From Gammaproteobacteria bacterium (GTDB lineage Bacteria; Pseudomonadota; Gammaproteobacteria; Pseudomonadales; Azotimanducaceae): DNA of 36,888 nt. Both the position numbers and the translations under genes were made by a program. Numbering within the stretch: the first letter of the stretch is position 1; each line of letters opens with the position of its first letter. Where the stretch lies: NCBI GenBank assembly GCA_009841635.1, contig VXLJ01000017.1, positions 1 to 36,888 on the forward strand, read 5' to 3'. The notes under the pieces are model-generated. The model ran no database searches. It was not told the origin of the DNA and was given only the letters and a program-made list of their open reading frames with translations. This document shows positions 3,227-32,140 of this stretch, piece after piece.

Positions 3227-4489
3227 ATCGACACCTCGCCACTCGCAGATCGGCTAAGACCTGCATCTTTCGCTGACTTCGTTGGTCAGGAACATCTGCT
3301 TGGACGCAATCGACCGCTCGCTACCTTAATTGAGCAACGTGCAGTCCATTCCATGCTTTTGTGGGGACCGCCAGGTTCAGGCAAGACGACGCTTGCTCGT
3401 TTGCTTGCTAAGAACTCCGATGCGCACTGGATTGCCATGTCTGCGGTGCTTGCTGGTGTTAAGGACGTACGTGCCGCCATCGCAGAAGCGAAAGACATGG
3501 TGCCGCATCAGACCGTCTTATTCGTCGATGAGGTGCACCGCTTCAATAAGGCGCAGCAAGACGCCTTTCTACCGCATGTTGAATCAGGCATCCTGACCAT
3601 CATTGGCGCGACCACCGAAAATCCTGCGTTTGAGGTGAATTCAGCGTTGTTGTCGCGGACGCACGTGTATGTTCTGCATCGTCTTGAAGCGCGCCATATA
3701 AGGGCTATTGTGAACCATGCGCTAGCAGCATGCAATTCGTCGGTCGTTTGTACCGAACGGGGTATGGAAACACTCATTGGACTCGCTGATGGCGACGCAC
3801 GACGAGCATTGAATTTGCTAGAAGCGGCTTTTCGCTTGAACGAGCAGGAACTTGACGGCGAGCATATTGAACGCGCGGCAGGGCAAGCCTTTCGGCAATT
3901 CGATAAAGGTGGCGATGCGTTCTACGACCAAATCTCCGCCTTACACAAGTCCATACGAGGTAGTGATCCAAATGCATCCTTGTATTGGTTTGCGCGTATG
4001 GTGGACGGTGGTTGTGACCCGCTGTACATCGCGCGGCGCTTGATTCGAATTGCAACTGAAGATATCGGCACAGCGGATCCACGTTGTTTGCAATTGGCAA
4101 TCGCGGCACGGGACGCGTATCGGCATTTAGGCTCACCTGAAGGCGAGTTGGCATTGGCGGAAACCGTGGTGTATTTCGCCTCTGTCCCGAAAAGCAACGC
4201 GGTTGATGTAGCCTATGAACGAGCGATGACATTTGTGCGCGAACATCCTTCTTATCCAGTGCCAATGCGTTTTCGTAATGCACCGACCAAGTTGGCAAAG
4301 TCTCTTGGTCACGGCGATGGTTACCGGTATGCCCATGATGAAGAACAAGCATTTGCGGCCGGCGAACGCTACTTCCCTGACGAGATGCCTGATCAAGCTT
4401 TTTTTAAACCGTCATCGCGCGGTATCGAAAAACAAATCGAAGAACGCTTATCTAAACTTCGCCGCTTGAACGAACGCGCCAAGCGCTAA
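3227..4489 (+). CDS. rarA: Replication-associated recombination protein A (AAA+ ATPase), start codon unresolved
   Basis: RarA/MgsA is a clamp-loader-like AAA+ ATPase acting at stalled replication forks, with SSB as known partner. Homology starts upstream of the first ATG (3353): the frame encodes SPLADRLRPASFADFVGQEH, the standard RarA N-terminus, from about 3236. Walker A is GPPGSGKTTLA, Walker B is LFVDEVHRFNKAQQDAFLP, and sensor 1 is IIGATTENPAFEVNSALLSR. The frame is open only from 3215, after TGA 3212-3214, and has no ATG, GTG or TTG before 3353. ATC at 3227 is the best in-frame candidate and would give 420 residues, near the usual size. A one-base indel is the alternative: ATG at 3211 is one frame off and stops at 3223. 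Starting at 3353 would remove the conserved N-terminus. crcB follows 5 bp later. Confidence 0.9.
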   Translation: MDTSPLADRLRPASFADFVGQEHLLGRNRPLATLIEQRAVHSMLLWGPPGSGKTTLARLLAKNSDAHWIAMSAVLAGVKDVRAAIAEAKDMVPHQTVLFVDEVHRFNKAQQDAFLPHVESGILTIIGATTENPAFEVNSALLSRTHVYVLHRLEARHIRAIVNHALAACNSSVVCTERGMETLIGLADGDARRALNLLEAAFRLNEQELDGEHIERAAGQAFRQFDKGGDAFYDQISALHKSIRGSDPNASLYWFARMVDGGCDPLYIARRLIRIATEDIGTADPRCLQLAIAARDAYRHLGSPEGELALAETVVYFASVPKSNAVDVAYERAMTFVREHPSYPVPMRFRNAPTKLAKSLGHGDGYRYAHDEEQAFAAGERYFPDEMPDQAFFKPSSRGIEKQIEERLSKLRRLNERAKR

Positions 4490-4494
4490 TTACT

Positions 4495-4863
4495 TTGCTG
4501 AAATCGGTTTTGCTTGTAGCTAGCGGTGGCGCTCTAGGCGCACTTGCCCGATATGTGGTAACTGTCTTTACCACAGCTCAAGGCGTTGCGCCTTGGGGTA
4601 CATTCATAGTGAATATTCTCGGATGCTTCTTAATTGGTATATTGATTGCGCAAGCAAGCGGATCCGAGTGGTACCAGGCGTATGGCAGATCGCTGATTGT
4701 GGTAGGTTTTTTAGGTGCTTTTACGACTTTTTCCGCATTTTCATTAGATACGCTAGAGCTTGCCGAACAAGGCAAGACTTCTATGGCCATCATCTATGCG
4801 GCGATCACTGTGAGTTCGTGCCTCGCCGCAACATACACTGGCTTGAAACTAGCAATTAACTGA
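4495..4863 (+). CDS. crcB: Fluoride efflux channel CrcB/Fluc
   Basis: Fluc proteins are small four-helix inner-membrane channels, working as antiparallel dimers, that let fluoride out of the cell. The 122-residue product has the family signatures: GGALGALARY near the N-terminus, WGTFIVNILGCFLIG in helix 2, and the pore motif GFLGAFTTFSAFSLDTLEL in helix 3. The start is TTG at 4495, 5 nt after the rarA stop; no ATG lies near the start of homology, so this start is accepted. The stop overlaps the serS start as TGATG (4861-4865), indicating translational coupling. No fluoride riboswitch is visible in front of it, as expected for an internal operon gene. Confidence 0.93.
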   Translation: MLKSVLLVASGGALGALARYVVTVFTTAQGVAPWGTFIVNILGCFLIGILIAQASGSEWYQAYGRSLIVVGFLGAFTTFSAFSLDTLELAEQGKTSMAIIYAAITVSSCLAATYTGLKLAIN

Positions 4864-6152
4864 TGCTAGACCCACGAGCGCTTCGGCGTGACCCAGAACT
4901 TATTGCCAAAGCGCTTAGCAAACGAGGCAATGCGTTCGACTTAACGTCCTATCGAGAGCTGGAGACCACCCGGCACGATCTGCAAACTGAACTCGAGAAT
5001 TTGCAACATGAGCGCAATGAAATCTCGAAGGCTATTGGACAGGCAAAAGGCGATGGTCTAGACATTGAACCGCTTAAGCTGAGCGTACGTGAAATCGGGT
5101 TCCGATTAGATGTTGTAAAGCAGGAGTTCGCGAAAGTTCGCGATGAACTCAGCGCCTTCTTGTTGTCCATTCCCAACGTACCGCACGAATCCGTGCCGGC
5201 CGGTGAAGACGAAGACGATAACCTAGTTTTGTACGAACGCGGCGAGATCCCATCGTTCAACTTTGAAGCGAAAGATCATGTCAATCTAGCGCCTAGTTTT
5301 TTAGATATTGAGTTAGCTGCCAAGATCAGTGGTAGTCGTTTCAGCGTATTACGAGGACCACTGGCAAAACTTCAACGGAGTTTGACTCAGTTTATGCTGG
5401 ATGTGCATGTCGAGCAACACGGGTATGAGGAGGTCTATGTACCTTATATCGTGAACGCATCATCCATGACGGCAACAGGTCAGTTACCGAAATTCGCTCA
5501 CGATGCGTTCCAGGTTCAACATACCGAACCGATGTATCTCGTCCCAACGGCCGAAGTGCCGGTGACCAATTTCGTACGGGACGAGATTTTGGCAGCGGAT
5601 GAGCTGCCAATGAAATTTGTCGCGCATACGCCGTGCTTTCGAAGCGAAGCTGGTTCCTACGGCAAAGACACGCGCGGCATTTTTAGGCAACATCAATTTG
5701 AAAAAGTAGAGCTAGTGCACGTTGCATCGCCAGATGACTCATGGGATGCATTTGAGGAGCTGCTCGGCAACGCGGAGGCAATCCTCAAGATGCTCGAGCT
5801 GCCTTACCGAGCAAGTGTGCTGTGCGGTGGTGATTTAGGTTTCGCCGCCGCGAAGACGGTTGACCTTGAGGTTTGGTTGCCAAGCCAGAAACGCTACCGT
5901 GAAATATCGAGCGTGAGTAATTTCTTGGATTTTCAAGCTCGCCGAGCTCAGGCACGCTTTCGCCGTCGGGCAGGCGAGCGACCGGAACTCGTACATACGT
6001 TGAATGGTTCTGGTTTAGCGGTTGGACGTGCCTTAATCGCACTGATGGAGAACTACCAGAACGGCGATGGCTCGTTCTGTATTCCGGATGTCTTGCGCGA
6101 CTACATGGGTGGTGTGGACTCGCTGAAACTTGTCGCACCACTGAGCGACTAA
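4863..6152 (+). CDS. serS: Serine--tRNA ligase
   Basis: SerRS charges tRNA-Ser, and also tRNA-Sec where present, with serine in the cytoplasm. The 429-residue length is standard. Residues 1-110 form the long antiparallel coiled-coil arm that grips the long variable arm of tRNA-Ser, starting with the typical MLDPRALRRDPELIAKAL. Class II motif 2 is CFRSEAGSYGKDTRGIFRQH, and motif 3 is GSGLAVGRALIALMEN. ATG 4863 overlaps the crcB stop by one base; the stop TAA shares its last base with the cysG ATG (6152). A tRNA-Ser(UGA), one of its substrates, lies 8 kb away at 14390-14477. Confidence 0.98.
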   Translation: MLDPRALRRDPELIAKALSKRGNAFDLTSYRELETTRHDLQTELENLQHERNEISKAIGQAKGDGLDIEPLKLSVREIGFRLDVVKQEFAKVRDELSAFLLSIPNVPHESVPAGEDEDDNLVLYERGEIPSFNFEAKDHVNLAPSFLDIELAAKISGSRFSVLRGPLAKLQRSLTQFMLDVHVEQHGYEEVYVPYIVNASSMTATGQLPKFAHDAFQVQHTEPMYLVPTAEVPVTNFVRDEILAADELPMKFVAHTPCFRSEAGSYGKDTRGIFRQHQFEKVELVHVASPDDSWDAFEELLGNAEAILKMLELPYRASVLCGGDLGFAAAKTVDLEVWLPSQKRYREISSVSNFLDFQARRAQARFRRRAGERPELVHTLNGSGLAVGRALIALMENYQNGDGSFCIPDVLRDYMGGVDSLKLVAPLSD

Positions 6153-25703: not shown

Positions 25704-26813
25704 TTGCGACGCTTCCTCTCATCCGAACGACGTACCCGCTGGCTACTCGCTGCTTTCGTCATTGGCGTGGCGCTTGTTTGGCTTCTGTCCGGTGTATTTA
25801 CAACCCAGGATGTAGGCGCACAACAAAGTATCGCCGAGATTAACGCCAACGAAGTCAAAAACACGGCTGGCAAACTACAAGTTGCAGTAAAAGCGCGGCG
25901 TAGTACCTCTGAAAATAAATCACGCGTATTGCATTTGTCGGGTCAAACAGAAGTTAAGCAAATTGCTTACGTTAAAGCTGAGACCAGCGGACGCGTAGTC
26001 AGCCGTGAGACTGAAGATGGGGATCGAGTTAAGACTGGTACTGTGCTATGTCGCCTGGAACTGAACGACAAAGAGGCTCGACTCCAAGCTGCGAAAGACA
26101 ATCTTGCGCTTGCGGAGATTCGTTATAAGAGCGCACTTAAGTTACGAGACCAAAACTTTGAACGCGAATCCGCGCTCATAGCCGCTAAAGCTGATCAAAG
26201 TAATGCGCGCCACAATTTAGCCTTAGCCCAAAAAGCGCTTGAAGATACGGCCGTTCGTGCGCCAGTTGCAGGGTTTGTTGAAATGTTGCATGCAAATGTC
26301 GGTGACTTTCTGCAACCCGGTGCGCTGTGTGCCACGCTAGTAAATCTAGACCCAATCTTCTTAATCACCCATGTGGCTGAGAAATTCGTTGACCAAATCG
26401 CATTAGGCGCTACGGTCAATGCCACGTTATCGACTGGCCAGTCGATTGCGGGTACTGTTTCGTTCATCGGCAAACTTTCCGCCGAAAACTCGCGAACATT
26501 TCGACTTGAGGTACGTGTGGCCAATCCAGATTTCCGCATTCGGGGTGGACTAACTGCCGATATTCACTTACCGCTGCGAGGTGTTGATTCGCATCGCATC
26601 GCTACATCCATGCTATCTACGGATAAGAACAGCAATCTAGGCGTTTATACGATTACAGATTCCATCGTTGAATTTCATCAAGTTGCCATCGTCGCGGACG
26701 ACGCCCAAGGTCTATGGGTTACCGGTTTGCCTGCAACCGTGCAGTTACTGACCGTCGGGCAGGACAGAGTTTCACCTGGCGATCGGGTGGCCGTCCAATT
26801 CGAAAATCGGTAG
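25704..26813 (+). CDS. RND efflux periplasmic adaptor (membrane fusion protein)
   Basis: This HlyD/AcrA-type adaptor links an RND pump to an outer-membrane channel. The 369 residues comprise an N-terminal membrane anchor (about 12-32), a lipoyl half-motif VKAETSGRVVSRETEDGDRV, and a short alpha-hairpin (about 125-180, rich in Ala/Leu/Lys). The second lipoyl half follows (VRAPVAGFVEMLHANVGDFL), then a beta-barrel and membrane-proximal domain. There is no lipobox Cys. The start is TTG 25704: the frame opens after TAA 25689-25691 and contains no ATG before the anchor. No good Shine-Dalgarno is seen. The pump gene follows after 66 bp. No TolC-type gene is nearby. Confidence 0.88.
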   Translation: MRRFLSSERRTRWLLAAFVIGVALVWLLSGVFTTQDVGAQQSIAEINANEVKNTAGKLQVAVKARRSTSENKSRVLHLSGQTEVKQIAYVKAETSGRVVSRETEDGDRVKTGTVLCRLELNDKEARLQAAKDNLALAEIRYKSALKLRDQNFERESALIAAKADQSNARHNLALAQKALEDTAVRAPVAGFVEMLHANVGDFLQPGALCATLVNLDPIFLITHVAEKFVDQIALGATVNATLSTGQSIAGTVSFIGKLSAENSRTFRLEVRVANPDFRIRGGLTADIHLPLRGVDSHRIATSMLSTDKNSNLGVYTITDSIVEFHQVAIVADDAQGLWVTGLPATVQLLTVGQDRVSPGDRVAVQFENR

Positions 26814-26826
26814 CGCCGTAGCCGGC

Positions 26827-26883
26827 ATGAGCACCTGGCTGCGCAAGCGAGTCCTCCAATCCATCAAGGTTGAGCAGCTGTGA
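26827..26883 (+). other. Possible 18-codon ORF between adaptor and pump genes
   Basis: ATG 26827 opens a frame encoding MSTWLRKRVLQSIKVEQL, whose TGA overlaps the pump start as GTGA (26880-26883). It may only couple translation of the pump to upstream ribosomes; a functional peptide is not supported. Confidence 0.25.
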
Positions 26884-29800
26884 GAGATGCCTTAATCGAT
26901 ATCGCGTTGGCGCACAAGCGATCGATTCTTCTCATCATGTTCGGCATCATCGTCTTTGGCGTTGTTGCACGCTTGTCTATTCCGACTGAGAGCGAGCCTC
27001 GCGTTGAGATTCCGTACTTCGTCATCACCGTGGTTCATGAAGGCATCTCGCCTGAAGATGCGCTTCGTTTGCTCGTGCGACCGTTAGAGATCGAGTTAAA
27101 GGCACTTGACGACGTCAAAGAAGTCACAGGCACCGGCGCCGAGCATGTGGGTTATATCGCCGTGGAGTTTCATGCAGCTGTCGATATCGATGTCGCTTTG
27201 GCTGATGTACGGGAAGCCGTAAATCGTGCAAAACCCGAATTACCTTCGACGGCGGAAGAACCAGTCGTCACAGAAACTGCAAGCACGAATTTTCCTGTGC
27301 TGCAAGTCAATTTAGTCAGCGAAATTGCGCCTGAACGTCTTGTGACTGATCTTGCGAAAAAACTGAAGGATCAACTCGAATCGGTACCACTGGTTCATAC
27401 TGCGGTGATACAAGGGCATCGCGAGGAGCTATTAGAGATTGCAGTTGAACCAGCTGAGCTGTACGCCAACCAGCTGTCGCTAGAGCAACTCGTGATCGCG
27501 TTAGCGCGTAACAACCAATTGATTCCAGCAGGATCTCTCGATACGTATCAGGGTAGTGTCGCTCTCAAGATTCCGAGCGTCGTAGAGAACGCCCAACATC
27601 TATTGCAATTACCTGTATTCGTGGATGGTGACACGGTCGTAACGCTGGCCGATATTGCAACGGTACGCCGTGCTTTCAAGGATCGCACCAACTACACCCG
27701 CAATAACGGTAAAGAGACGATTACCGTATTCGTTTACCGACGTGTAGGCGCTAACACCATAGAAGCTGCACGACAGGTAAGAGCAGCAGTGGCAGCGTTT
27801 CGAGAAGGATTACCTAGTAACGTGGAAGTGTTTATTTCACGAGATGCATCCACGTTTGACGAACAGCAAATTACAGAACTTGAAGGAAACATCGTTACGG
27901 CGTTGTTTTTAGTGTTGGCTGTCGTGATTCCGAGTGTGGGAATTCGTAGCAGTCTGATCGTTGCGCTGACGATTCCAGTTTCTTTTTTATTCGCGATGAT
28001 CTTTTTGTGGCTATTGGATTACAGCTTCAACTTCATGGTCATGTTTGGCATGCTCATGAGTCTGGGGATGCTAATTGATGGCGCAATCATTGTGTCGGAG
28101 GACGCAGAACGCCGAATTGCACTAGGTATTGGTGGCGAGGAAGCTTACGGCAGCGCGGCAAAACGCATGTTTACGCCAGTGATCGCTTCTACGGCCACCA
28201 CGTTGGCGGCGTTTATGCCGCTGCTTTTTTGGCCAGGCACGGCCGGGCAATACATGGGTTACCTCCCGGTCACGGTGCTCATGGTGCTGATCGGTTCGCT
28301 TCTTTTCACGTTGATTTTTGTGCCGACGTTAGGTAGCACACTTGCAGCTCGGACCAATTCTGTCGAGAAGAAAGCAGAAGTTGACTTTTGGCTCCGTGAT
28401 CTGACGGCACTCCCTCGCATATCAGCTGGGTACGTGCAACTGATCAACTATGCGGCCCGCTATCCGTTCGTGACGCTAATTGCGATCGTCGCGATTGTGT
28501 ATGGTATTTTCACGTTGTTCGGCGCGCGCGATCAGGGTGTCATATTGTTCAGTGAAAACGATCCTATGCATATACAGATCAATGTGCGTGCTAGTGGCAA
28601 TCTAGACCTAGACGAGGCGAAAGATCTCGTGCTAGAAGTTGAATCGATAGTGCTAGCTGTGCCTGAAATCAGGTCCGTGAACACGTATGTCTCGAACGGT
28701 TTGACAAAAGGTGCAGGGCAGTTCGCTCGTTTTCAAGGTGGCTCAAGTGCTGACGTTATCGGCACCATGTTTCTGGAGACGCACGACGCGAAAGAGCGTG
28801 CTCGAACAGGTCAGGCGGTCATCGACGAGCTTCGCGCCAACGTGAATCAGATTGGCGGCATATCAGTGGAGGTGCGAGCTTATGAGGGATTTTTGACCGC
28901 TGGCAAGCCAATCTTTGTTCAAGTCACTTCGCGCGAACGAGAGTTACTCATGCCTGTCGTTACAGCGATTCGTGCGCATATGGATGCCATGGAAGGTTTG
29001 GACAACATCGAAGACACTTTGCCGCTGCCAGGCTTTGAGTGGCAATTGACCGTGGACCGCGAGAAAGCTGCGCGTTTTGGGGCGGACGTAACAGCAATCG
29101 GTTTGCTAACGCAATTAGTTACCGAGGGCGCTAAATTAGGCGAGTATCGGCCAAATGATTCGGATAAACCTCTCGATATACGTATTCGTTTTACGGAAGC
29201 GAATCGCGCGTTGGATCGTTTGGATGAACTACAGTTAGCAACGCCTGGTGGTTCGGTCCCAATTTCCAATTTCGTGTCCCGCCAGCCTGTTTCCAGGCAG
29301 GACACCATGCAACGACGTGATCAACAAGCTATGCATGTGGTGCAAGCTGACGTATTGGCTGGGTTTCTCGCCGACGCAAAATCGCGCGAGTTGCAGGGAT
29401 GGATCGAACGTCAGCAGTTTGATGACCGCGTGAACATTCGTTTCAGGTCGGCCGCTGAGGATGAACAGGAATCTGTGGCGTTTGTAACAAAAGCTTTCTC
29501 TTTTGCGCTGCTATTAATGTTTGTACTTCTGGTCACGCAATTTAACAGTGTTTACCAAAGTCTGATCACGATATTTGCGGTCGTGTTGTCTACCGCAGGT
29601 GTATTTCTAGGCTTGGTCATCACCGGTCAACCATTCAGCGCGGTGCTGTCGGGCGTGGGAATCATTGCGCTATCTGGAATAGTCGTGAATAACAGTATCG
29701 TATTGATCGATACGTACAACATTGGACGGCGTGAGCACCCTGACATGTTGCCATTGGATGTCGTGATCAGGACGGGCTTGCAGCGATTGCGACCCGTGCT

Positions 29801-30092
29801 GCTGACCACCATTACGACGATGATTGGTTTATTGCCACTAGCGAGCCATCAATCCATTGACTTTATCAATCGCACTTGGACGACAGGCAGCACCCTATCA
29901 AACTACTGGGTGCCGTTAGCTCAAGCAGTAGCGTTTGGGTTGGGTTTCGCGACCATTCTGACCTTAATTGTGACGCCTGCTATGCTCGTATTGCCAAACA
30001 GGTTTAAGGACCTGAATCACACCTTTATTGTCGAGCCCCTTGCGCAATGGCGTACTAAAGTAGGTCTTGGACGAGGTGCCACGATCGATTGA
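26880..30092 (+). CDS. RND efflux pump, inner-membrane permease subunit
   Basis: A 1070-residue proton-driven RND permease with the usual plan: helix 1 (about 14-32), a large periplasmic loop, helices 2-6 (about 338-490), helix 7, a second loop and helices 8-12. The helix-4 proton site is changed: AcrB has two adjacent Asp (D407/D408), while this protein reads LIDGAIIV with D400 and G401. In helix 10 the AcrB Lys940 position is Asn (IVVNNSIVLID, N937). Such DG/NN variants occur in other RND branches and do not mean inactivity. Substrate unknown. The GTG start at 26880 has AAGGT upstream. It ends 29 bp before the convergent P450-fusion gene. Confidence 0.92.
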   Translation: MRDALIDIALAHKRSILLIMFGIIVFGVVARLSIPTESEPRVEIPYFVITVVHEGISPEDALRLLVRPLEIELKALDDVKEVTGTGAEHVGYIAVEFHAAVDIDVALADVREAVNRAKPELPSTAEEPVVTETASTNFPVLQVNLVSEIAPERLVTDLAKKLKDQLESVPLVHTAVIQGHREELLEIAVEPAELYANQLSLEQLVIALARNNQLIPAGSLDTYQGSVALKIPSVVENAQHLLQLPVFVDGDTVVTLADIATVRRAFKDRTNYTRNNGKETITVFVYRRVGANTIEAARQVRAAVAAFREGLPSNVEVFISRDASTFDEQQITELEGNIVTALFLVLAVVIPSVGIRSSLIVALTIPVSFLFAMIFLWLLDYSFNFMVMFGMLMSLGMLIDGAIIVSEDAERRIALGIGGEEAYGSAAKRMFTPVIASTATTLAAFMPLLFWPGTAGQYMGYLPVTVLMVLIGSLLFTLIFVPTLGSTLAARTNSVEKKAEVDFWLRDLTALPRISAGYVQLINYAARYPFVTLIAIVAIVYGIFTLFGARDQGVILFSENDPMHIQINVRASGNLDLDEAKDLVLEVESIVLAVPEIRSVNTYVSNGLTKGAGQFARFQGGSSADVIGTMFLETHDAKERARTGQAVIDELRANVNQIGGISVEVRAYEGFLTAGKPIFVQVTSRERELLMPVVTAIRAHMDAMEGLDNIEDTLPLPGFEWQLTVDREKAARFGADVTAIGLLTQLVTEGAKLGEYRPNDSDKPLDIRIRFTEANRALDRLDELQLATPGGSVPISNFVSRQPVSRQDTMQRRDQQAMHVVQADVLAGFLADAKSRELQGWIERQQFDDRVNIRFRSAAEDEQESVAFVTKAFSFALLLMFVLLVTQFNSVYQSLITIFAVVLSTAGVFLGLVITGQPFSAVLSGVGIIALSGIVVNNSIVLIDTYNIGRREHPDMLPLDVVIRTGLQRLRPVLLTTITTMIGLLPLASHQSIDFINRTWTTGSTLSNYWVPLAQAVAFGLGFATILTLIVTPAMLVLPNRFKDLNHTFIVEPLAQWRTKVGLGRGATID

Positions 30093-30121: not shown

Positions 30122-32140
30122 TCAATCTAACGGGTATCGCACACGCTCGACGCGAAACTTGAAACCTCTGTTGGGGCTATTTTTCGGCAAGGGACTTATT
30201 TTCAGGTTGTAATTAAGTGGCACCATTTTGAGTTCGAGATGGTGGACGATCAGCATGACGCATGCAACAAGGTGAAAATCTACAAAGCGAGCGCCAAGGC
30301 AAGTATGCGTGCCTAAGCCAAACGGTCGGTATGCACTGGTTTGCCGATGTTCGTTGCGTGGCTCCGCAAATCGCTCAGGATCAAACAGGTCAGGGTCTTT
30401 AAAAAACTCATCCATGTAATGGGTTGCGGTAAACACCAGCAAACAACTGCTCCGCTCTGGCACTTGGAACCCTCTCACATCGAATGAGTTCATCGCGGTT
30501 CGAGAATGCATGGGTATAATGGGGTGCAGACGCAGTACTTCCATGATGAAGCGATGTGTGTAGTCAATTCGTTCCATCGTGAAGTCTTCGTTAGATGGGT
30601 CGCGGTCTGCAAAAAGTGCGTCCGCTTCCGCCGTTACTTTTTTTAAACACTCTTTGTTCTTCAACAGTTCATAGAGTGCGAAGTTCAACGCGCTACCCAT
30701 GTAGTGGCCAGCGATGAGAGGCGCAATAAAGCCGAATTCGAGATCCGTGTCGGGCATAAATTGCGGATCGTTCATATGAAGCGCTAGTAAGTCATCAACG
30801 AAATCTGCATTCGTATCGATACGCTGCCCTGGCGAGTGTGAAGCATGAATGTGACGATAGAGTTCTAACACTGACTTCAGTGCTCGTTTCATCTTCGGTG
30901 TTTTCAACGCGATCTTAGGCAGCAATCCCACAACATGAATCAGCAGGGCGCGATATTCATACTGAATAAGGGCATCTAGCAATTCAATGGGTGGTTTTAC
31001 GCTAACCATGAGCATCGCGATTTGCTGGCCAGTGAATCGCTGGCATGTTTGCTCACCGGTTAGTACGTTGCCTTTTACCCAGTGTTTAAGGCTCGAGCGG
31101 CCAAGTTCATAGACCTCATCCATTCGCCCTTCGACTACTTTCCGAGAATTACCGTCGCGGAATACACGACGCATGCGGAAGTGATCAGGACCGTCCATAC
31201 TTGCGATAGAGCGCGCGGCGCCCCAAGCTGATTGAAAATCCTCTAGATAGTCGCGTGACCGCAAAAACAACCGTCCGCGGCGACTAACCCAGCGATTTGC
31301 CTCGTCTCCCGCGAGCACCACATACTTGCGTCCAGGTAGTTTGAGTTCAAAAATCGGGCCTATTTTTTGGCATTGTTCAGCAATGAATTTCGATAAATTG
31401 CGCTGCCGCAATGATTTTGATTTCAAACAGTCCCACAAACCGATGCTTGGCATCTTACGGGCTCTGCGTCGTAGGAGGCTAGGGGGCGGTTGGTAGGAGC
31501 TACCTACCACATCTAATATAGCTTTGCCGAATAGATCGAGTCCCGCCAGTAGTTGAATACGTTCCTCGGCCAGCTCATATTCGTCGAGCGTTAGAAATGT
31601 TTTGAAAGCATCACATGCGCGCAAGAGCGCAATCAATGTCACGTCCTTGGGATACGGCAAGTCATTGCCGAGTACGCAGTTCCTAATGCGAACCCTGACC
31701 TCTTCGTTGCCCTCGTCGCCAGCGAGCGGGTAGAAACCTTCACTTCGGACCTTGTCCGTTAACGACCAAAAACCGGCGTGATCCTCGAAGAGAATGCCTG
31801 CTTCTACGAGTTGCTCTAGGACCTTATCGATGAGTTCATCGCCGTCCATCGCTAACTTTTCTATCCAGTACTGAGGGACGTGAACTTTGTCAGCCTGAGC
31901 AATCAAAGCCAGTGCGGGATCCACGAGCGCGTTACCCGTGGGTGTCGTATCAAGGACGCGCAACCCTGTTACGTCAGCGTCGATTCGCTGCTTGAACGAA
32001 AGTTCTAGTAGTATCGCACCAGCGAATCCGCACCACATATGCCAATTCGGTGAGAGCGCCACAACGGAACCATCCTCGTCCTTCAATAGCATAAGAGCAA
32101 GCTCTTCGACGATCGATAGTGCCGCTGGCTGGTCGGCCAT
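30122..32140 (-). CDS. GPP34 (GOLPH3-like) domain fused to a cytochrome P450
   Basis: A 672-residue, two-domain protein. Residues 5-212 match the GPP34/GOLPH3 fold: LSIVEELALMLLKDEDG, CGFAGAILLELSFKQRID, a PTGNALVDPALALI segment, VLEQLVEAGILFED, and a C-terminal ALLRACDAF block. Residues 235-665 are a P450. The C-helix is GPDHFRMRR (317-325), the K-helix is EVLR (534-537), PERF is at 588-591, and the heme loop is FGLGTHTCLG with the heme ligand C614. The I-helix reads AGHYMGS (477-483), where most P450s have an acid/alcohol pair; it resembles CYP51-like AGHHTS but has Met for Thr. There is no N-terminal membrane anchor; GPP34 could provide membrane attachment (inference). Transcribed alone; no ferredoxin or reductase is adjacent. 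Confidence 0.9.
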   Translation of the reverse strand: MADQPAALSIVEELALMLLKDEDGSVVALSPNWHMWCGFAGAILLELSFKQRIDADVTGLRVLDTTPTGNALVDPALALIAQADKVHVPQYWIEKLAMDGDELIDKVLEQLVEAGILFEDHAGFWSLTDKVRSEGFYPLAGDEGNEEVRVRIRNCVLGNDLPYPKDVTLIALLRACDAFKTFLTLDEYELAEERIQLLAGLDLFGKAILDVVGSSYQPPPSLLRRRARKMPSIGLWDCLKSKSLRQRNLSKFIAEQCQKIGPIFELKLPGRKYVVLAGDEANRWVSRRGRLFLRSRDYLEDFQSAWGAARSIASMDGPDHFRMRRVFRDGNSRKVVEGRMDEVYELGRSSLKHWVKGNVLTGEQTCQRFTGQQIAMLMVSVKPPIELLDALIQYEYRALLIHVVGLLPKIALKTPKMKRALKSVLELYRHIHASHSPGQRIDTNADFVDDLLALHMNDPQFMPDTDLEFGFIAPLIAGHYMGSALNFALYELLKNKECLKKVTAEADALFADRDPSNEDFTMERIDYTHRFIMEVLRLHPIIPMHSRTAMNSFDVRGFQVPERSSCLLVFTATHYMDEFFKDPDLFDPERFAEPRNEHRQTSAYRPFGLGTHTCLGARFVDFHLVACVMLIVHHLELKMVPLNYNLKISPLPKNSPNRGFKFRVERVRYPLD

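Follow-up and report, generated by a model that had tools for sequence, protein, structure and literature searches.

The gene at the centre of this analysis encodes a GPP34/GOLPH3-like domain joined in frame to a cytochrome P450, and this GPP34–P450 fusion is a genuine, conserved protein family. Judged from sequence and gene context, it is probably a sterol-tailoring (or, more broadly, a polycyclic triterpenoid-tailoring) enzyme that would carry out non-canonical P450 chemistry while docked through its GPP34 domain. The features on which the argument rests are listed below by their position in the window, by which we mean the whole 36,888-nucleotide stretch of DNA that was analysed.

30122..32140, minus strand: GPP34–P450 fusion gene, 672 aa, with an ATG start.
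31511..32113, minus strand: GPP34/GOLPH3-like domain, residues 10-210 (PF05719, E 8.3e-29; Foldseek matches to GOLPH3/Vps74).
31409..31510, minus strand: interdomain linker, residues 211-244, lying between the two Pfam matches (pLDDT down to 69 at residues 221-230).
30200..31408, minus strand: cytochrome P450 domain, residues 245-647 (PF00067, E 1.4e-41; Foldseek matches to P450s).
30689..30712, minus strand: I-helix groove AGHYMGSA, residues 477-484, placed by alignment; one residue shorter than canonical and without the acid-alcohol pair.
30530..30541, minus strand: ExxR motif, residues 534-537 (E534 and R537 in 95 of 95 fusions).
30293..30322, minus strand: heme-binding loop FGLGTHTCLG, residues 607-616, with Cys614 (C614, G608, G610, H612 and G616 in 95 of 95 fusions).
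25704..26813, plus strand: periplasmic adaptor of an RND pump (HlyD/RND_mfp), recurrent near the fusion.
26880..30092, plus strand: RND efflux permease (PF00873, E 1.6e-143), a convergent neighbour 29 bases from the fusion gene.

The identity of both halves is well supported. A sequence-only reading of this DNA had placed a GPP34 domain in the first ~212 residues and a P450 with heme loop, ExxR and PERF motifs in the remainder, and both assignments hold. When residues 1-215 are compared with PF05719, profile and predicted fold agree: the Pfam match scores 101.5 bits against a cut-off of 29.1 and covers profile positions 1-196 of 201. Residues 235-665 match PF00067 from residue 245 to 647 with 143.2 bits (cut-off 22.8), and all three P450 motifs are present, the last as FDPERF. 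In a search of the PDB, a GPP34 profile built from 14 domains (10 fused and 4 stand-alone) picks out human GOLPH3 (3kn1) at E 3.3e-18 and yeast Vps74 at E 1.1e-14. Modelled alone, residues 1-215 reach a pLDDT of 89.8 and a pTM of 0.88, and each of the 8 Foldseek matches of this model at E<=0.001 is to GOLPH3 or Vps74, the best at E 2.3e-9 with a TM of 0.75 by query length. The AlphaFold2 model of the whole protein, built on an alignment of 95 sequences, has a mean pLDDT of 89.1 and a pTM of 0.84; its Foldseek matches are to P450s, with the 50 rows listed all CYP102 heme domains. Structure prediction recovers the GOLPH3/Vps74 fold from residues 1-215 modelled alone and the P450 fold from the full protein, and the heme loop with its cysteine, the ExxR motif and the P450 fold together place the second half in the P450 superfamily.

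The fusion is present in every sampled genome of its own genus and rare in wider draws of order and phylum. Among 97 related genomes (18 from the genus, 43 from the rest of the family and 36 from the rest of the order), the full fusion is found in all 18 genus genomes, three of which carry a second copy, and in 4 of the 43 other family genomes (G023, G029, G049 and G060, the last with a shortened copy); no fusion is among the matches listed for the remaining 36. A wider draw of the order gave 5 of 390 genomes, four in the window's genus and one in the same family, and a draw of the phylum gave 1 of 398, the window's own. Outside the fusion, a further GPP34 match of ~225 aa is present in each genus genome; in G012 it is a partial 148-aa frame.

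A much broader distribution emerges from a collection of 84,980 species, which was searched with an alignment of 24 fusions and from which the best 80 of at least 335 matches were kept. All of these best 80 span most of the query, and 8 of the 80 named loci repeat genomes of the genus and family set. By record title, the best 80 of the at least 335 matches divide into Pseudomonadota (40), Chloroflexota (14), Acidobacteriota (13), Rhodothermota (4) and one each of Gemmatimonadota, Verrucomicrobiota, Nitrospirota and Actinomycetota, with no phylum stated for 5. Five loci (L143, L145, L150, L157 and L163) give no fusion ORF and are still within the denominator of 80; in L163 the gene is interrupted between the two domains, and in the other four a longer antisense frame is called over the fusion. 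Altogether, the two domains occur together in 104 ORFs, which represent 95 distinct fusions, and a search for the architecture, proposed in the sequence-only reading, shows that it recurs across eight phyla by record title. The concern that the two parts might be joined in one assembly alone is set aside by these 95 fusions and by the 18 genus genomes.

Searching the fusions for shared ancestry divides the tree of 95 into clade A (30 rows, including the window, with the I-helix motif AGHY), clade B (62 rows, mostly ASxYxG) and a small outgroup, clade C (three rows with AGLET). Further divergent fusions are found in L283, with the motif ALHTA, and L287, with AGLDT. Phyla are intermixed within well-supported groups of the tree, a pattern that fits horizontal transfer of the fusion, short of proof. 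Separate trees of the GPP34 part and of the P450 part were compared after the shortened L076 was dropped. Either tree needs just two changes, the fewest possible, to keep A, B and C apart, and 48 of 91 splits are common to both, so the two domains appear to have travelled together in this set. An assembly chimera can be ruled out by this co-inheritance and by the presence of the fusion in every genus genome.

Isolate names offer some insight into where these bacteria live. Seventeen of the 80 names are jk18x bins, a prefix used for Ircinia genomes (PMC9531527), 28 are COS, RHO, APA or IRC bins, and 2 are CO36386 bins; the latter two groups fit the sponge species of PMC8163846 by abbreviation only. 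The remaining 33 names give no verified source. Since the names point there, a sponge microbiome origin is likely and the fusion-bearing bacteria are likely sponge-associated, though the make-up of the collection may also shape the count.

Genomic proximity is a useful guide to what the fusion may do. Genes up to ~8 kb on each side of the 80 named loci were clustered and representatives scanned with Pfam; the resulting families were counted by tblastn on the DNA (1282 kb of case loci and 184 kb of control loci). A KshA-type Rieske oxygenase (Rieske plus KshA_C, PF19298) lies near 56 of the 80 loci, an RND permease near 46, a homologue of sterol methyltransferases (SMT; Methyltransf_11 plus Sterol_MT_C) near 28, an FAD amine-oxidase-like gene near 24 and an MMPL protein with a sterol-sensing domain near 14. 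Rieske, SMT or MMPL genes occur at 63 loci and any of the five families at 75, leaving 17 and 5 loci, respectively, without them. None of the five was found by tblastn at the 13 control loci (GPP34 without the fusion P450), all of which come from the window's bacterial family. An ORF-based count gave 72 of 80 against 0 of 13; among the controls it overlooked 5 of the 13 GPP34 genes, and the tblastn count covers the DNA directly. Within the genus and family, 22 loci hold RND genes in 16 cases, SMT in 14 and Rieske in 11. Of the recurrent neighbours, the window locus has just the two genes of the RND pump, and RND pumps are common and unspecific. The window's own genome has no KshA-type Rieske homologue at E<=1e-20, and 16 of the 18 genus genomes have one. 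As the sequence-only reading had observed for the window, no redox partner is found among the neighbouring genes scanned. In six genus loci (L079 and L090-L094), thioredoxin-domain proteins and a small family without a Pfam match, in several copies, sit beside the fusion.

Genes for making sterols are encoded in the window's genome as well. One other contig of the window's genome encodes SdmB-like (E 1.1e-90) and SdmA-like (E 1.4e-120) proteins, an ERG24-type reductase (E 3.2e-64), a CYP51 (PDB 6mcw, E 1.5e-108), a squalene epoxidase joined to an oxidosqualene cyclase (SE-OSC), an FAD oxidase and a squalene/phytoene synthase. The SE-OSC, of 1130 aa, matches lanosterol synthase (1w6k) at E 3.7e-124, against E 1.3e-55 for squalene-hopene cyclase; the SdmA-, SdmB- and cyclase-like proteins score below the NCBI curated cut-offs. 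Two SMT homologues are encoded elsewhere than on the cyclase contig, with none on the window contig. SE and OSC are fused in one protein both here (L244:5457-8849, G000:C35) and in L284:9126-12788 (1220 aa), and a Melophlus symbiont is known to have a bifunctional squalene epoxidase/cyclase of this kind (PMC7074536).

Across the genus, strong SMT homologues are present in 17 of 18 genomes (the G012 match is weak), and cyclase-domain matches in 11 of 18, OSC and SHC being told apart for the window's genome only. Physical linkage between the fusion and sterol genes is seen in L284 and G011 and partly in G005 and G008, and is absent on the window contig. In L284, from Nitrospira sp. bin75, the fusion (4007-6076), two SMT homologues, an SE-OSC, a CYP51 and an ERG24 lie within 11 kb, and the CYP51 is 70% identical to that of the window's genome. 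In G011, a genus member, homologues of SdmB, SdmA, ERG24, CYP51 and SE-OSC begin 2.4 kb after the fusion, with 60-79% identity to their counterparts in the window's genome. In G005 and G008 a P450 and a cyclase lie 6-10 kb from the fusion.

A sterol-type cyclase was not found in every fusion genome. The cyclase search covered 50 of the 80 loci, leaving out 8 in genomes already searched, L170 (same genome as L163) and 21 others. An OSC-type cyclase was found in 19 of these 50 genomes, at 675-758 bits and in all cases below the NCBI cut-off of 851; the other 31 have no OSC-type match and show hopene-cyclase-like, weak or no cyclase matches. Cyclase-bearing genomes make up 22 of 28 for clade A fusions and 8 of 38 for clade B or C only, a contrast without statistical weight because it is a single independent contrast in the tree. 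The idea of a clean split, with clade A having a cyclase and clade B lacking one, is weakened by that single contrast and by a tree along which the cyclase state changes 14 times.

Taken together, the gene context makes sterol or triterpenoid tailoring the best explanation, and a substrate of this class is probable from the genes encoded nearby. The range may be wider than sterols, given a divergent fusion in Holophagales (L283:5368-10515, G537) that is flanked by a squalene-hopene cyclase on one side and a sulfotransferase on the other, and whose ALHTA motif is of canonical length. That locus, the RND permeases near 46 of the 80 loci and the 31 tested genomes without an OSC-type match would also suit a P450 that acts on some other hydrophobic compound (a hopanoid, carotenoid, fatty acid or host toxin) for export by the RND pump, with the sterol genes being part of a broader lipid island. 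We consider this unlikely, however, as SMT homologues, the KshA-type Rieske and the sterol-sensing MMPL recur across phyla, and de novo sterol genes adjoin the fusion in L284 and G011. Less probable again is steroid breakdown, in which the P450 and the KshA-like Rieske, with PhyH and MaoC-type genes, would degrade host sterols at the nucleus or the side chain as a carbon source. The KshA_C domain of the Rieske neighbour can be read this way, as can the PhyH and FAS1-DH/MaoC-type neighbours in L078, a close relative; against it, the Rieske protein matches named NCBIfam families weakly, and the genes nearby include SMT homologues and, in L284 and G011, ERG24, CYP51 and OSC, which build sterols.

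If the fusion is a sterol-tailoring P450, its active site suggests an unusual one. The I-helix acid-alcohol pair that marks canonical O2-activating P450s is missing from the window protein and from 92 of 95 fusions, in which the groove is one residue shorter; Tyr480 is likewise present in 92 of 95, and the other 3 carry AGLET. Disruption of the pair removes the usual proton delivery for O2 activation and opens a hydroperoxide-type route (PMC9112060). Such a route fits with the absence of a redox partner among the scanned neighbours, and on balance we favour a non-standard chemistry for this P450. This missing pair, the sterol gene context and the spread across phyla all go beyond the sequence-only reading. 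It is very unlikely that the P450 has lost its oxygen chemistry and, directed to its place by GPP34, acts as a non-catalytic partner or as a sensor or carrier of sterols: the missing pair and a weak match to TIGR04515, a P450-derived glycosyltransferase activator family (E 4.1e-5, below cut-off), would allow it, but all 95 fusions keep the ExxR motif, the heme cysteine, the heme-loop glycines and several residues of the C-helix unchanged, as expected of a heme enzyme under selection. Two fusion-related P450s without GPP34 (L066:4345-5979 and L067:7486-8796) have RLGD in the I-helix and a heme loop changed to GSHACPAS.

The contribution of the GPP34 domain can be approached through the residues of GOLPH3 that we take to bind PI4P, namely W81, R90, R171 and R174. 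When the fused domains are aligned to GOLPH3, R90 is kept in 0 of 95 (Ala, Val or Ile, with one Gly), R171 in 0 of 95 (Asp or Glu, with one gap), and R174 is Arg in just 3. A Trp aligns with W81 in 92 of 95; hmmsearch puts W81 on the neighbouring column, making this match unsure. The fused domains therefore lack the conserved arginines of a phosphoinositide effector; PI4P tethering as in GOLPH3 is not supported, and the eukaryotic basis for tethering is weak. It is still plausible that the domain tethers the P450 to a membrane or to a lipid substrate, as had been suggested from the sequence, and we give a docking role about an even chance.

GPP34 domains that lack a P450 look different at these positions. 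In 7 of 8 such sequences, which include L095, L096, L099, L101 and other GPP34 genes of related genomes, an Arg aligns with GOLPH3 R174, unlike in the fused domains, and L095, L096 and L099 have a common SRRYP motif that also sets them apart. Other GPP34 proteins (L072:7974-9152, L073:6190-7365 and L069:7165-8835) carry extra parts without a Pfam match, either ~190 aa after the GPP34 domain (L072 adjoins a multiheme cytochrome c) or ~340 aa before it.

Sterol tailoring by a docked P450 could then proceed along the following lines. The sterol would be made by the cell itself, whose genome encodes SE-OSC, CYP51, ERG24, SdmA/B and SMT homologues, or, in related bacteria in which no cyclase was found, might be taken from the sponge host. 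Through GPP34 the enzyme would dock either to the inner membrane or to another sterol enzyme as its partner, and phosphoinositides are probably not involved. The P450, without its acid-alcohol pair, would work off the standard O2-activation route, perhaps as a peroxygenase or as a catalyst of desaturation, isomerisation or rearrangement, and the RND or sterol-sensing MMPL transporter encoded nearby may then transport the product.

A bolder and more tentative extension is that bacteria of many phyla in the sponge holobiont share the fusion through horizontal transfer, and that this GOLPH3-docked P450 has a novel active site, without the oxygen-activating pair, with which it edits de novo or host and diet sterols. 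Equally tentative is the division of labour this might entail, in which cyclase-bearing symbionts would edit sterols made de novo, and those where none was found, which would still have SMT and a sterol-sensing transporter of Patched-like type, would edit sterols of the host or its diet. If true, such an enzyme would account for some of the peculiar sterol chemistry seen in sponges, and GPP34 would serve bacterial sterol pathways as a docking module. There is debate over whether the unusual sterols that serve as animal biomarkers come from sponges or from their bacteria (PMC10070321), and the bacterial steps described include cyclisation, demethylation, reduction and side-chain methylation. 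To these the fusion adds a candidate tailoring enzyme with transporter partners, and, with the fusion also present in symbionts where no cyclase was detected, the idea that bacteria edit host sterols can be tested directly. The bacterial GPP34 domain gains a concrete metabolic setting, and a P450 family with a conserved, non-standard I-helix is on offer.

Comparison with known systems helps to define what is new. GOLPH3 and Vps74 belong to the same Pfam family, are homologous by profile and have a similar predicted fold; the bacterial fusion differs in being joined to a P450, in lacking the conserved arginines and in having a shorter loop before R171. The one study of bacterial GOLPH3 found in the literature concerns SCO4440 of Streptomyces coelicolor, likewise a bacterial GPP34-domain protein but stand-alone and without a P450; it is tied to peptidoglycan and wall-deficient cells, and its gene adjoins a D-Ala-D-Ala carboxypeptidase gene (PMC12402492). 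Searches of the open-licence PMC literature for GPP34 together with P450s, with bacteria or Streptomyces, and with sponges listed no report of the fusion, and the earlier statement that no function is described for this architecture stands for the literature searched.

Among P450s, peroxygenases of the CYP152 type are driven by H2O2 and have an Arg-Pro in the I-helix; the fusion has no Arg-Pro in the aligned motif, and its match to NF053744 is far below the cut-off of that family. The CYP51 I-helix has a His-Thr. The best PDB sequence matches of the fusion P450 are to CYP51 (6mi0, E 1.1e-25), spanning residues 423-644 only, and its motif lacks the His-Thr: a CYP51-type row from L210 reads AGQHTSA where the fusion reads AGHYMGS. 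CYP51 is found in the same genomes as the fusion, and that of the window's genome shares 24% identity with the fusion P450 over 231 residues. With this separate CYP51 present, the fusion P450 can be ruled out as the CYP51 of its genome.

The closest likeness is to the steroid clusters of sponge symbionts, among them the msb locus of a Melophlus symbiont (PMC7074536), with which the genes described here have ERG24, CYP51, cyclase and SMT in common, along with SdmA/B and the squalene epoxidase-cyclase in some. Sterol clusters are described in sponge bacteria of ten phyla, including the Ircinia CSGs, with evidence for horizontal transfer (PMC9531527), and symbiont SMTs are active in vitro, some making the 24-isopropyl side chain (PMC10070321). 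The word GPP34 has zero occurrences in the main texts of these two papers and of PMC7074536, and the fusion appears to accompany the sponge-symbiont sterol gene set without having been reported so far.
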